A DNA stretch of 36,765 nucleotides from Ammonifex sp. (lineage in GTDB: Bacteria > Bacillota > Desulfotomaculia > Desulfotomaculales > Ammonificaceae). Below, in pieces: positions 3,963-29,913 of the stretch. Location: NCBI GenBank assembly GCA_003604985.1, contig QZIW01000085.1:1-36765 (forward strand), written 5' to 3'. The notes under the pieces were generated by a model. That model saw nothing but the letters and a program-made list of their open reading frames with translations. It was not told the origin of the DNA and did no database searches. Numbering within the stretch: position 1 is the first letter of the stretch; the number at the start of each line of letters is the position of its first letter. A program made the position numbers and the translations under genes.

Positions 3963-4053
3963 GGTCAGAAGTCAGAAGACAGAAGTCAGAATGTTTCGGG
4001 ATGTCAAAAATTCTGAATTCTGTATTCTACATTCTATATTCTAACTTCTGACC
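3963..4053. repeat. Imperfect palindromic intergenic repeat inside the fdh operon
   Basis: GGTCAGAAGT (3963-3972) is complementary to ACTTCTGACC (4044-4053). Between them lie runs of CAGAAG-type units and then ATTCT-type units that are roughly complementary, so about 90 bases could fold on themselves. Repetitive A/T/C-rich sequence (ATTCTACATTCTAT and similar) continues to about 4120. It has no coding potential and occupies the 203-base gap between the NuoF-like gene and fdhA. Confidence 0.65.
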
Positions 4054-4142
4054 AATTTAGCCACTCAGAAGAGGTCATTCTACATTCTATTATTTGAACT
4101 TAGAACTTAGAACTTTGAACTTTTGAAGAAAGGAGCGTCCCC

Positions 4143-7146: not shown

Positions 7147-8451
7147 ATTTGGGACAGGCCGAACGAGACTCTCCCCCGCAAAGACATCGAAGCGCTGCAG
7201 CTAAGGCGGTTGCAAGAACTGGTAGCGCGGGTTTACAGGACGGTGCCGCACTACCGCCGCTGTTTCGACGCCGCCGGCGTAACGCCCGGTGATATCAAAT
7301 CCCTTGCGGACGTCCGGCGCCTGCCCTTCACCACCAAAAACGAACTGCGGGACAACTACCCGTTCGGCTTGTTTGCCGTCCCCCTGAAACGCGTCGTCCG
7401 AATTCACGCTTCCTCCGGCACCACCGGGAAACCGACCGTCGCCGGTTATACGAAAAAGGACCTTCGCACCTGGGCCGAGCTTATCGCCAGAATCGTCACC
7501 ATGGCCGGCGTCGGGCGGGGGGACGTGGCCCAGATCTGCTTCTCCTACGGGCTCTTCACCGGCGGTTTCGGGCTTCACTACGGGCTGGAGCGCGCCGGTG
7601 TCACCATCGTACCGGCGGCGGCCGGCAACACTGAAAGACACGTGCAGCTCATGCAGGACTTCGGCACCACCGTAATCGTAGGCACTCCCTCTTACGCCCT
7701 CTACATCGCGGAGGTCGCCCAGAGAATGGGGGTTGATCCGCGCGCGCTCAAAGTGCGCGTTGGGTTGTTCGGCGCTGAACCCTGGGGAGAAGGAATACGG
7801 GCCGAAATTGAAAAAGCGTGGGGCATCGACGCGTACGACAACTACGGACTGAGTGAGGTGATCGGCCCGGGCGTCGCCGGCGAATGCCGCGTGAAGGACG
7901 GGCTGCACGTCAGCGAAGACCACTTCCTTGTGGAAGTTATCGATCCGGAAACCGGACACCCGATGCCGCCTGGGGAAAAGGGAGAAATCGTTTTCACCGC
8001 GCTTACCAAGGAGGCGTTCCCGGTGCTCCGGTACCGGACCCGCGACCTCACCCGCTTGATCACCGAACCCTGCTCCTGCGGCAGAACGACCGTCCGCATG
8101 GAAAAGGTCACCGGGCGCACGGACGACCTGCTCATCATCCGTGGCGTCAATATATTCCCATCCCAGATCGAAGAGGTCTTGACGAGCATTCCCGGCCTGG
8201 CACCGCACTACCGGATCATCCTTGAAAAAAAGGGTTATCTTGACGACATCCAGGTAGAAGTGGAGCTTGCAAGCGAGGGCTTCACCGGGAGGTTCGAAGA
8301 CCTCGCCGTCCTGGAGGACCACATCCGAACACGGCTCCATACAGTGATTACGCTGATGCCGAAGGTGAAGCTGCTCGAGTTCGGCTCGCTCGAAAGGACG
8401 TCGGGTAAGTCGAAACGGGTTGTGGACCGGCGCGGGGAGAAGAGGCGATGA
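7147..8451 (+). CDS. paaK: Phenylacetate-CoA ligase family protein (first copy)
   Basis: About 434 residues of the PaaK adenylate-forming family, which makes aryl-acetyl-CoA from an aryl acetate, ATP and CoA (or runs in reverse). Motifs: P-loop SSGTTGKP (89-96), [11 protein letters not shown], and YRTRDLT, with the C-terminal GRTDDLLIIRGVNIFP hinge. The start is odd. The second copy at 10881 begins MWNPE with ATG; the matching position here reads ATT TGG GAC (ATT at 7147), preceded by ATC. No ATG, GTG or TTG lies in frame between the -10 box at 7098 and this point. In-frame TTG/GTG codons farther upstream (6934, 7066) would add non-homologous sequence and precede the probable transcription start. 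I therefore place the start at 7147 as a likely AUU (or AUC at 7144) codon. The gene overlaps iorA by ATGA. Confidence 0.88.
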   Translation: MWDRPNETLPRKDIEALQLRRLQELVARVYRTVPHYRRCFDAAGVTPGDIKSLADVRRLPFTTKNELRDNYPFGLFAVPLKRVVRIHASSGTTGKPTVAGYTKKDLRTWAELIARIVTMAGVGRGDVAQICFSYGLFTGGFGLHYGLERAGVTIVPAAAGNTERHVQLMQDFGTTVIVGTPSYALYIAEVAQRMGVDPRALKVRVGLFGAEPWGEGIRAEIEKAWGIDAYDNYGLSEVIGPGVAGECRVKDGLHVSEDHFLVEVIDPETGHPMPPGEKGEIVFTALTKEAFPVLRYRTRDLTRLITEPCSCGRTTVRMEKVTGRTDDLLIIRGVNIFPSQIEEVLTSIPGLAPHYRIILEKKGYLDDIQVEVELASEGFTGRFEDLAVLEDHIRTRLHTVITLMPKVKLLEFGSLERTSGKSKRVVDRRGEKRR

Positions 8452-10880: not shown

Positions 10881-12194
10881 ATGTGGAACCCAGAGATCGA
10901 AAGCATGCCACGTGAAAAGCTCCGCGAACTGCAACTTAAACGGCTTAAAGAAACGGTCGACCTTGCTTACCAAAACGTGCCCCACTACAGGCAGAAGTTT
11001 GACCAGATGGGACTGAAGCCGCAGGACGTCAAATCCCTCGACGACCTTGCGCACCTGCCGTTTACGGTTAAAACCGACCTGCGCGACCACTACCCGTTCG
11101 GGCTTTTCGCCGCGCCGCTGAAGGATATAGTCCGGGTGCACGCTTCCTCCGGCACTACGGGAAAGCCGATCGTAGTCGGGTACACCCGCGAGGACATCAG
11201 CACCTGGGCCGAGGTAATGGCACGCACCATCGGCATGGTAAATACGACCTTCGAGGACGTCGTACAGGTGGCCTACGGTTACGGCCTGTTCACCGGCGGT
11301 CTGGGTCTCCATTACGGCGCCGAATACATGGGCGCAACGGTGGTACCCATGTCCGGCGGCAATACCAAGCGCCAGATCATGCTCATGCAGGATTTCGGTA
11401 CTACGGTGCTGTGCTGCACACCCTCCTACGCCCTGTACATCGCGGAAGTTTTCGCCGAGATCGGCGTCCCGCGCGAGAGCCTCAAACTGCGTGCCGGCCT
11501 TTTAGGCGCGGAACCGTGGTCCGATGCCATGCGCAGAGAAATCGAGGAGAAGCTTAAGATAGACGCTGTCGACATATACGGCCTGAGCGAAGTAATCGGG
11601 CCGGGAGTGGCAAGCGAGTGCCTCTGCAAGGAAGGACTCCACATATGCGAGGACCACTTCATTCCGGAAATCATCGACCCGGAAACCGGCACGGTCCTGC
11701 CGCCCGGCCGGCCCGGCGAACTGGTCTTCACGACCATTACCAAAAAGGGGTCGCCTGTCCTCCGCTACCGGACCCGCGACATCACGCTGCTCATCGACGT
11801 CCCCTGCGCCTGCGGCCGGACTCACATCCGTATGGCCCGGGTGATGGGGCGTTCAGACGATATGCTCATCATCCGGGGCGTAAACGTCTTCCCGTCGCAG
11901 ATCGAAAGCGTGCTGCTGTCTATCAGCCATACCGAGCCCCATTATCTGATCGTGGTGGACCGGGAAAAAGCGCTTGATACCCTGGAGGTCTGGATCGAAG
12001 TCTCCGAAGACCTTTTCCGGGATGAAATCAAAGGGCTCGAGGAGCTGGAACGCTGCATTCACAACGAGATTGAAAGCGTACTCGGCATATCGGTTAAAGT
12101 AAAACTGGTGGAACCAAAGACGATCCAGCGCAGCGAAGGAAAGGCGAAACGCGTGGTAGACAAGCGGGATCTCCCCAAGAAACAGGAGGGATAA
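10881..12194 (+). CDS. paaK: Phenylacetate-CoA ligase family protein (second copy)
   Basis: 437 residues, aligned end to end with the first PaaK of the cluster (same [30 protein letters not shown] and [19 protein letters not shown] segments) but clearly diverged, so it is not a recent duplication. The ATG at 10881 is 7 bases after a consensus AGGAGG. A TTG at 10875 lies too close to that site. Paralogues flanking iorAB suggest either different aryl-acid specificities or opposite directions: CoA activation versus ATP recovery from aryl-acetyl-CoA (inference). Confidence 0.94.
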
Positions 12195-19796: not shown

Positions 19797-19830
19797 ATAG
19801 AGGTGAGAAGTTGAAAGTTAGAGGCAGGAA
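19797..19830. repeat. Copy of a dispersed intergenic repeat
   Basis: AGAGGTGAGAAGTTGAAAGT followed by TAGAGGCAGGAA resembles AGAGGTGAGAGGTTGGAGGT...GAGGCAGGAA near 29630-29665 in the ileS leader. The surrounding 19680-19887 otherwise holds only a possible + promoter (TTGTCA at 19740, TATTCT at 19762). Confidence 0.5.
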
Positions 19831-19881
19831 AGGTTGCAGGGGGACCGGCAAGGACATTGTTGAAAGAATGGCGGTTGGGGT

Positions 19882-19903
19882 GGAATATTGCGCAAAATAT
19901 TCC
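19882..19903. promoter_or_regulatory. Inverted repeat across the polA start codon
   Basis: GGAATATT (19882-19889), 6 bases, AATATTCC (19896-19903). The TTG start of polA (19888-19890) lies at the end of the left arm, so an RNA hairpin would partly bury the start codon; alternatively it is an operator. Confidence 0.45.
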
Positions 19904-22473
19904 TGATTGACGCCAACAGCCTGGCGCACCGGGCCTTTCACGCCATCCCGCCGCTCACCACCAGGGAAGGGCTTCCCACCAACGCAGTCTTCGGGTTCAC
20001 CAGTATGCTGATCAAGCTGCTGAAGGAATTCCGGCCCGATGCTGTAATTGCCGCTTTCGACAAGGGAAAGTTTACTTTCCGCCACAACCTGGCGGACTCC
20101 TATAAAGCACACCGGCCTGAAACGCCGGACGACCTCCGGCCCCAGTTCCCACTCATCAAAGAGGTCCTCAGCGCCCTGAGAATCCCGGTGGTTGAAGTGG
20201 ATGACTTCGAAGCCGACGATATCATCGGCACCCTTGCCTCTCGGGCCGAAGCGGAAGGCTTTTGCACGCTGATCGTGACCGGGGACCTGGACACGCTGCA
20301 GTTTGTGTCCCCCAGGACTTCGGTCCTTCACACCAAGAAGGGTATATCAGAAATCGCCACCTACGACGTGGAAGCCGTCAGGGAACGCTTCGGGATCGAC
20401 CCGGAAAAATTACCTGACTATAAGGGCCTGGTCGGGGACAGTTCGGACAACATCCCCGGCGTACCCGGCGTCGGGCCCAAGACTGCCGCCGCGCTGCTGC
20501 GCAAATACGGCAGCCTGGAGGAGATTCTTGCACACACCGCGGACCTCCCCGAAAAACTCAAGGGGACACTCGCCCGCTATAGTAAACAGGCCCTTCTGTC
20601 AAAACGTTTGGCCGTCCTGGAACAAAACGCGCCGCTGCCGTTGAACGTGGATTTTACCTGGCCCGGACCGGATACCGCCGCCTCAAACGAGATTTTTCAC
20701 CGCCTGCAGTTCCGCTCGCTCCTCAAGAAGCTGTACGACCTGGGATACGCGACTACGCCTGCAGGGGTGCAGGTCTCAAGTGCGCCGGCGCTTGCCGGGG
20801 CCCGGCCCTTCCCCGACGACACCGACCAGTTCGCCGCGCACCTAAAAGAAACCGAAACGGCAGCCGTCTACCTGGAGGCCAAACAGCACGCGGCCTGTGC
20901 GCTCTGCACCGGTGCGGAAACAGTGTTTTGCGCGGAAGGGGCGGAAAGTACAGCGGCTCTTCTTAAAGCCATAGCTTCGGTTCCGGAACTGAAGCTGACC
21001 ACTTTCGACGTAAAACAGGCGCTTCACCTTATGGGGCCGTGCGGTCTGGAGCCCGAAAGATTTTACTTTGACGTGATGCTGGCCGCCTATCTGCTCAACC
21101 CGGGGATTCCCAATCGCCTTGGGGACATTGCCTTTGAGCACGCCGGTGTGCACCTTTCGGAAGAAGCAAGCCCGGCGGAGAGGGCCCTTATCATTTACCA
21201 ACTGACACCGTTGCTCGACACCAAGCTCCGGCTTCAGGGACTGGATCACCTGTTTCGGGAGGTGGAACTTCCCCTCGCGGCGGTGCTCCGAGCGATGGAA
21301 AGCGCCGGGGTGGCTGTTGAACCCGCGGAACTGGCCGCTATCTCGGCCGAACTGGGGGAGCGGATCAGTCTCCTCTCGGACGAAATCTGCGGCCTCGCCG
21401 GCCGGAGCTTCAACCTTAACTCACCGCGCCAGCTCGGGTCAATCCTTTTTGATGAAATGGGGCTTAAGCCCGTTAAAAAGACCAAGACGGGGTACTCTAC
21501 GGACGCTTCCGTGCTGGAAAAATTAACAGAGCACGAAATTGTGGCCAAAATTCTACTATACCGCCAACTGGTCAAGTTTAAGGGCACGTATACCGACGCC
21601 TTGATGAGGCTCATCAACCCCGCGACCGGGCGCCTGCATACTACTTTATACCAGACGGTGACGGCTACCGGGCGGCTCTCCTCCGCCGACCCGAACTTGC
21701 AGAACATCCCGATACGGGATCCCCTGGGCCGTCGAATCCGGCGCGCGTTCGTGGCCGGCCTGCCGAAAAGCGTCCTGCTCAGCGCCGATTACTCGCAAAT
21801 AGAACTCCGGATCCTCGCCCACCTTTCGGGTGATCCGCTTCTCCTCGACGCGTTCCGGACAGGCGAAGACATACATGTCCGGACGGCCGCCGAGGTAGCG
21901 GGTGTCGAACCCGCCGCGGTAACGCCCGAAATGCGCTCGCGCGCCAAAGTAATTAATTTCGGTATCATCTACGGGATGAGTGACTACGGCCTGGCGCAGG
22001 AACTGAAAATCGAACCGGGCGAGGCCCACCGGTACATCCAAAGTTACTTTGACCGCTACAGGTCCGTCAAAGTGTTTATCCAGAATACCATCCGGAGAGC
22101 GCGGGACAAGGGTTATGTTACTACGATCCTCAACCGCTGCCGTAACATTCCGGAACTCCTCAGCCCAAACCGCATGCAGCGGCAACTGGGCGAGCGCCTC
22201 GCAGTGAATACGGTTATTCAGGGAAGCGCGGCCGACCTGATCAAAAAAGCCATGGTCGACATTCACCGCGAGCTTCTGCGACGGAAGTTTGAGACCCGTA
22301 TGGTGCTCCAGGTGCACGACGAACTTCTTTTCGAGGTCCCGGAAAAGGAGCTTGGTGCAGTCGCCCCCGTGATCAAAGCGAAAATGGAAGGGGCCCTGGA
22401 ACTGGATGTCACGCTGACGGTGGCGCTTAAAGCGGGACCTAACTGGCACGACGTGGAAAGGATTGAGGTTTAA
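19888..22473 (+). CDS. polA: DNA polymerase I
   Basis: 861 residues in three parts. The 5'-3' exonuclease (1 to about 290) has FLIDANSLAHRAF, EADDIIGTLA, TGDLDTLQ and the GVPGVGPKTA helix-hairpin-helix. The 3'-5' exonuclease-like domain (about 300-470) lacks the DxE metal motif (it reads AAVYLEAKQHA), so proofreading is lost, as in many Gram-positive and thermophilic relatives. The polymerase (about 470-861) carries motif A DYSQIELRILAH (from about 634), motif B RSRAKVINFGIIYG (about 680) and motif C VHDELLFEV (about 810). It fills gaps and removes RNA primers in replication and repair. The start is TTG at 19888 behind GGGGTGG. mutM follows two bases after the stop, so both repair genes are coexpressed. 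Confidence 0.97.
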   Translation: MRKIFLIDANSLAHRAFHAIPPLTTREGLPTNAVFGFTSMLIKLLKEFRPDAVIAAFDKGKFTFRHNLADSYKAHRPETPDDLRPQFPLIKEVLSALRIPVVEVDDFEADDIIGTLASRAEAEGFCTLIVTGDLDTLQFVSPRTSVLHTKKGISEIATYDVEAVRERFGIDPEKLPDYKGLVGDSSDNIPGVPGVGPKTAAALLRKYGSLEEILAHTADLPEKLKGTLARYSKQALLSKRLAVLEQNAPLPLNVDFTWPGPDTAASNEIFHRLQFRSLLKKLYDLGYATTPAGVQVSSAPALAGARPFPDDTDQFAAHLKETETAAVYLEAKQHAACALCTGAETVFCAEGAESTAALLKAIASVPELKLTTFDVKQALHLMGPCGLEPERFYFDVMLAAYLLNPGIPNRLGDIAFEHAGVHLSEEASPAERALIIYQLTPLLDTKLRLQGLDHLFREVELPLAAVLRAMESAGVAVEPAELAAISAELGERISLLSDEICGLAGRSFNLNSPRQLGSILFDEMGLKPVKKTKTGYSTDASVLEKLTEHEIVAKILLYRQLVKFKGTYTDALMRLINPATGRLHTTLYQTVTATGRLSSADPNLQNIPIRDPLGRRIRRAFVAGLPKSVLLSADYSQIELRILAHLSGDPLLLDAFRTGEDIHVRTAAEVAGVEPAAVTPEMRSRAKVINFGIIYGMSDYGLAQELKIEPGEAHRYIQSYFDRYRSVKVFIQNTIRRARDKGYVTTILNRCRNIPELLSPNRMQRQLGERLAVNTVIQGSAADLIKKAMVDIHRELLRRKFETRMVLQVHDELLFEVPEKELGAVAPVIKAKMEGALELDVTLTVALKAGPNWHDVERIEV

Positions 22474-29336: not shown

Positions 29337-29411
29337 TCCTCTTCCTCCAACTGGGATATGTACTGAGTGCCGGGTCGTTTCTGAACGGCCTCCGGTCTAC
29401 TCAGGTCCCCC

Positions 29412-29450
29412 AATAATTATTAAACCTCTCATCGCAAGGGACGAGAGGTT
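29412..29450 (-). terminator. T-box transcription terminator of ileS
   Basis: On the minus strand AACCTCTCGTC, loop CCTTGC, GATGAGAGGTT (11 bp with one G-U), then TTAATAATTATT. The 5' arm overlaps the region downstream of the T-box sequence that the antiterminator would use. Confidence 0.85.
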
Positions 29451-29629
29451 CTTCCCGTGGTACCACCCTAATAACCCAGCACTCAACTTACCCAACTCTA
29501 CCAGAAGGAAACTGGCTCCTCAAACCAACACATGTTCGTTTTAGCGTCACCGTAAACTTCAAGTTGAGTGCCGAGATTGAGTGCTGGATGCTCTTTGCCT
29601 GTAACGCGGCAAACCGCCCTGACTTATTA

Positions 29630-29720
29630 GAGGTGAGAGGTTGGAGGTCAGATCTGAGGCAGGAATTTGCACAGGGGAATTCCTACCTTATTCCCACTTC
29701 TAACTTCTCAGACTTCCCGC
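29630..29720. repeat. Dispersed repeat inserted in the T-box leader
   Basis: AGAGGTGAGAGGTTGGAGGT...GAGGCAGGAATT, then a GGAATTCC segment and CACTTCTAACTTCTCAGA. The first part resembles 19797-19830, and the ACTTCT/AACTTCTGA words resemble the palindrome at 3963-4053. It separates stem I from the remaining T-box structure. Confidence 0.55.
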
Positions 29721-29839
29721 TTCTGTTCAGTCCGGGGCCTCCCGGGTGATCTTCGCGCGGTTCCGCCGCCCGGCTCCCACCATCCCAGGCTCGCTTTGGG
29801 CCGGTCAACCGCCTACCTCCCGTTCATCGGTAATATGCA

Positions 29840-29863
29840 AAACAGGCTGACTCCGGCCTGTTT
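29840..29863 (-). other. 5'-leader hairpin upstream of stem I
   Basis: AAACAGGC and GCCTGTTT arms (8 bp) with an 8-base loop, followed on the minus strand by TTTTGC. It lies between the ileS promoter and stem I. It could be a weak terminator for DUF167 readthrough or a stabilising 5' hairpin. Confidence 0.45.
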
Positions 29864-29884
29864 GGTTGATGGCACCTGACCTTT

Positions 29885-29913
29885 ATTATATCCGTACCGA
29901 AAAGCCTTGACCA
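29885..29913 (-). promoter_or_regulatory. Sigma-A promoter of ileS
   Basis: On the minus strand TGGTCA (29913-29908), 17 bases, TATAAT (29890-29885). It begins just after the DUF167 stop at 29917 and would start the ileS leader near 29878. Confidence 0.7.

Follow-up and report, generated by a model that had tools for sequence, protein, structure and literature searches.

Dispersed repeats as the outer stem II arm and, very probably, stem III of an ileS T-box leader in Ammonifex sp.

Can the leader RNA of a tRNA-sensing gene accommodate dispersed genomic repeats among its structured parts and still work? This question was raised by the region upstream of ileS in Ammonifex sp., an uncultured bacterium, within a window of 36,765 nucleotides (the whole stretch of DNA analysed here), where the original prediction had seen the stem I of a T-box as set apart from its decision hairpin by a dispersed repeat. 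With good confidence, and judging from the sequence, we regard this leader as a tRNA-Ile-sensing, transcription-attenuating T-box that has received two unrelated elements, hereafter A and B, the former in the outer part of stem II and the latter, very probably, in stem III.

The ileS leader and its core parts

The ileS leader was recognised as a transcriptional T-box extending from 29836 to 29412 on the minus strand (Table 1). A covariance-model search, the route initially proposed for placing the stems, aligned it with RF00230 over all model positions (1-219) at 71.8 bits (E 1.7e-15). This alignment and folding confirmed the T-box, its ATC specifier, the antiterminator and the terminator as they had been predicted. 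At the gathering threshold of Rfam, which is 93 bits for RF00230, no T-box was called anywhere in the window. This score is a curation cut-off and no defining trait of T-box RNA, and that of the ileS T-box was probably lowered by long insertions; the distance between specifier region and T-box amounted to about 287 nt, versus a median of 116 nt in 54 relatives.

Likewise, the working parts of such leaders were all recognisable in the sequence, namely a putative S-turn, IIA/B, stem III and the discriminator elements. The codon-anticodon duplex finds support in the S-turn of stem II, the IIA/B pseudoknot serves as a hub, and stem III belongs with its flanking purines to the T-box discriminator (PMC7583486). 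Antiterminator and terminator overlapped, as in transcriptional T-boxes, and the UGGU of the T-box bulge at 29465 is able to pair with the NCCA end of the tRNA. The leader thus resembles the ileS-type T-boxes of RF00230 in its stem I with specifier, S-turn-like stem II, IIA/B, stem III, UGGN bulge and antiterminator/terminator, and differs from them in that copies of dispersed genomic repeats make up its outer stem II and, very probably, its stem III.

Some further features were recorded in the window. The hairpin located between promoter and T-box could be an RNA-stabilising or terminator-like element. A possible second hairpin (CTGAGT..ACTCAG, 29363-29404, minus strand), conserved in the nearest relative, occurred between the terminator and the ileS start. 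Far from the leader, two 26-nt direct repeats GGGTCAGGCTTTACTTTGTG.ATTTG (537-562 and 690-715) were 96% identical and 153 nt apart, and two paralogous coding stretches (7295-8172 and 11029-11906), about 3.7 kb apart, displayed 70-75% identity.

Table 1. Features of the ileS leader and copies of element A in the window. G002 is the nearest relative, G001 a further congener.
Feature	Position	Strand	Basis or remark
ileS, isoleucyl-tRNA synthetase, 927 aa	26553..29336	-	Pfam: class I synthetase and zinc finger of IleRS
Sigma-70-type promoter TGGTCA-17-TATAAT	29885..29913	-	Kept in G002
5' hairpin AAACAGGC..GCCTGTTTT, between promoter and T-box	29840..29863	-	Conserved in G002
Stem I with AG-bulge/distal-loop motifs	29738..29830	-	RF00230 alignment
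AUC (Ile) specifier	29748..29750	-	Rfam alignment; ileS downstream matches codon
Stem II lower helix, 5' strand CCCGGACU	29729..29736	-	Folding; pairing possible in G002 and G001 too
Putative S-turn, 5' side GAAC	29725..29728	-	Compared with GAA/AGUA of relatives
Element A, dispersed imperfect palindrome, outer arm of stem II	29629..29724	-	BLAST, covariance models
Putative S-turn, 3' side AAUA	29625..29628	-	Comparison with relatives
Stem II lower helix, 3' strand AGUCAGGG	29617..29624	-	Folding
Stem IIA/B motif CGGUUUGCCGCGUUA, CGG..CCG CGUUA	29602..29616	-	Rfam alignment, relatives
Stem III base, 5' strand, outer CCAGCACUCAA, putative element B end	29577..29589	-	Pattern matches, congener pairing
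Inner copy GCACUCAACUU, local duplicate	29561..29571	-	Without counterpart in relatives
Stem III base, 3' strand UUGAGUGCUGGGU, putative element B end	29474..29486	-	Pattern matches, congener pairing
Element B filling stem III (very probably)	29474..29589	-	End patterns, length
Antiterminator, T-box bulge UGGUACC at 29465-29459	29436..29469	-	-8.9 kcal/mol
Intrinsic terminator (12-pair hairpin at 29451-29422)	29412..29449	-	-15.0 kcal/mol
Another element A copy	3963..4059		Covariance model
Degenerate element A copy	19798..19959		BLAST

Element A in the outer arm of stem II

The insert is 96 nt long and lies just beyond the putative S-turn; the Rfam alignment assigned 95 extra nucleotides to the loop of stem II. 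In comparison with the ileS T-boxes of relatives, the lower helix of stem II, IIA/B, stem III and the discriminator were intact around it. As read from these alignments, the insert takes the place of the outer arm in stem II and leaves the core uninterrupted, with no free linker between the domains. The repeat between stem I and decision hairpin was therefore found, but inside outer stem II and not in a structureless linker. The lower helix of this stem (29736-29729 with 29624-29617) displayed seven standard pairs out of eight and one G.A mismatch; its probability ranged from 0 to 0.56 in free-energy folding of the leader, a model that ignores tertiary contacts. Element A might thus weaken stem II.

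The proposed resemblance of the insert to dispersed intergenic repeats was borne out. BLAST matched it to 12 other places of the genome (best E 5e-5), and the copies shared purine-rich arms and a common centre GGAATTCGC..GCGAATTCC. A covariance model made from nine copies yielded 51 two-strand matches in this genome, i.e. about 26 copies, as well as 141 in G001, 43 in G002, 17 in G003, 65 in G004 and 96 in G005; it had no match in the Ammonifex-type genomes G006 and G007. Since a model built from eight other copies, the ileS copy being left out, scored the latter at 54.4 bits (E 5e-11), the resemblance is independent of training.

Among relatives this arm was the changing part of the stem. The nearest one (G002, locus L049, 91% IleS identity) displayed at the same site an arm of 55 nt, which was 58% identical where aligned and matched the element A model weakly (14 bits, E 0.25), and G001 carried there an unrelated sequence, likewise longer than usual. 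The repeat region might have been a conserved part of stem II, as the original prediction had itself considered; it does lie in stem II, yet its outer arm was not conserved. As far as the sequence goes, with its conserved core, the further idea of an insertion-tolerant T-box stands. Since the insert extends stem II outward, and not between the domains that contact the tRNA, it is a test of distal arm tolerance more than of tRNA bridging.

Element B in stem III and in other T-boxes

Element B is delimited by CCCAGCACTCA[A/G] ... TGAGTGCTGGG and mostly measures about 91-101 nt. Its ends are conserved and its length is near-constant, and its interiors vary strongly, are often self-complementary and form several subfamilies in one genome. 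In the genome studied here, CCAGCACTCAA had 47 matches versus 16 for the reversed control. The paired-end pattern gave 10+10 matches in this genome, 27+27 in G001 and 22+24 in G005, the reversed pattern giving none. In the order as a whole, this pattern occurred in 24 of 113 genomes with up to 66 copies (control 0), and three copies from separate contigs of G069 were identical over the 80 bases compared. No consistent target-site duplication was seen when the flanks of B copies were read by eye.

Elements A and B recall prokaryotic MITEs (PMC10969869): both are short, non-coding and palindromic with inverted repeats, have many dispersed copies that are largely intergenic where inspected, and are patchily distributed across species. 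Unlike in MITEs, the interiors of B are strongly variable at near-constant length. An integron attC identity, suggested by the GTTRRRY-like ends of some copies, was dropped upon sequence inspection as other copies were devoid of them.

Stem II of the ilvE T-box of G001 (L189 1501-1935, G001 C8) contained a third element, about 200 nt long (GCAAGGAAGA..CCGGAG..GGAAGTAC..GCTGACGCAGC), to which a sequence separating the terminator from ileS in the same genome (L171) is related. One B subfamily of G001 always occupied the same spot inside this third element (L221, L222, L224, L232 and L234). For the large insert of the ilvE T-box, an omega-RNA/HEARO identity was considered and dropped, no Rfam match being found.

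In the ileS leader, the outer GCACUCAA copy and the single TTGAGTGC form the 13-bp base of stem III. All 13 pairs were kept in this genome (G000), G002 and G001; six of them varied and two had changed on both sides, a covariation among three sequences for which the shuffle control is weak (reached by 115 of 500 shuffles) and slid controls gave no double change. Because B interiors vary, the origin of this stem was judged on ends and length. Its counterpart in G002 displayed exact CCCAGCACTCAA...TTGAGTGCTGGG ends at the usual B length (101 nt), and the distance from CGTTA to the T-box was 126-139 nt in this genus versus a median of 53 nt in the ileS T-boxes of relatives. Both observations argue against an ordinary long stem that would resemble the ends of B by coincidence. 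Such a stem would agree with the diverged ends found in G001 and with B interiors that cannot be aligned, and we consider it unlikely. Stem III of the ileS leader is thus, very probably, a copy of element B.

Five T-boxes were detected in this genome, none of which passed the Rfam cut-off. Three of them carried B, the one of ileS also containing A. In the T-boxes of aroF (DAHP synthase, UUC specifier; L001) and thrS (L005), B constitutes outer stem II. For aroF, this arrangement was shared with G001 and G005, was more diverged in G002 and degenerate in G003; the aroF T-boxes of G006 and G007 displayed a short ordinary arm (CCCGGGA..UCCCGGG). For thrS, it was shared with G004 and G005, was shortened in G002 and degenerate in G003 and G001.

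Three of about 14 B copies of this genome lying in T-boxes corresponds to a chance of 6e-5, a value that assumes even placement over 219 kb of intergenic DNA, for a pattern noticed post hoc and copies shared by descent. This figure, and the fact that some B copies are nested in other dispersed repeats, could suggest an element that aims for T-boxes or, more broadly, for hairpin tips. Yet general T-box targeting was rejected, as the B pair was displayed by none of 29 T-boxes from five other B-carrying genomes (31-66 B copies each), in a survey of those T-boxes that had a retrieved locus and were recognised by the pattern. Hairpin-tip targeting was likewise rejected, as the complementarity of the flanks of 41 B insertions was no higher than that of permuted flanks. 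Moreover, the T-box copies were common to relatives, which points to few old events. Directed insertion of either kind is therefore improbable: considering their absence elsewhere and their shared descent, B is probably not attracted to T-boxes, and the copies found there probably represent a few old insertions that were kept.

Function of the leader and meaning of its arms

A marked difference between core and arms appeared when the leader was compared with that of G002: the core was 90-99% identical, versus 58% for the A arm and 44% for the B interior. The simplest reading would be a functional T-box with outer arms at liberty to vary, in which mobile-type hairpins have come to reside. Both elements, B very probably, lie beyond the conserved core, each capping a helix already present, and each would fold outward as a self-contained hairpin. 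The specifier-anticodon contact, the S-turn, the IIA/B pseudoknot and the contact between antiterminator and acceptor should then stay unchanged. We infer that the element arms point away from the tRNA and that uncharged tRNA-Ile is still sensed by this leader.

Alternatively, the T-box could be decaying, the insertions having disabled tRNA control of ileS and left a leader that constitutively terminates or is read through. The Rfam score below the cut-off and the predicted weakness of lower stem II would be in line with such decay, as would the T-box signature not being found in front of ileS in several relatives, namely G003 and Ammonifex-type genomes (L022, L023, L024 and L050), where L022 of G003 retains a terminator-like remnant. 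Decay is nonetheless hard to reconcile with a core that remained nearly identical while the arms drifted, with an intact specifier, T-box bulge, antiterminator, terminator and promoter, or with the compensatory changes in stem III, and we give it little chance. The alternative folds initially proposed for the GCACTCAA copies (29577-29587 and 29564-29574) and the single TTGAGTGC (29476-29486) were rejected as a two-way switch, which is very improbable: the three segments exist and the outer and inner pairings both comprise 11-13 bp, perfect or nearly so, but the inner fold is 7-9 kcal/mol less stable and has a near-zero probability, G002 and G001 lack the inner copy, and it is the outer pairing, conserved with compensation, that makes the base of stem III.

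Insertions into T-boxes, encountered in every domain, were listed as an unexplained, open question in a 2020 review (PMC7583486); what distinguishes the present case is their source, dispersed repeats of mobile type. T-box-like motifs within pneumococcal BOX elements have been mentioned, while insertion into a T-box has not (PMC10969869), and no mobile element inserted into a T-box was found in the open-access literature searched. The ileS T-box itself is ordinary; its arms made of dispersed repeats are, within that literature, the new aspect.

The working T-box with repeat-filled arms would provide one concrete source for T-box insertions, dispersed mobile-type hairpins, and would indicate places where they are tolerated in the RNA, the tips of stems II and III. 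Leaders of this kind escape the standard Rfam thresholds. Sister species offer natural constructs of differing arm length, from which the limits of arm variation before tRNA sensing fails may be approached. It is conceivable, though we hold this tentatively and with some doubt, that mobile hairpins were adopted as working arms of three T-boxes (ileS, aroF and thrS) in this family, their ends being under selection as outer helices of stems II and III while their interiors drift. If so, mobile elements would have repeatedly rebuilt a tRNA-sensing RNA.
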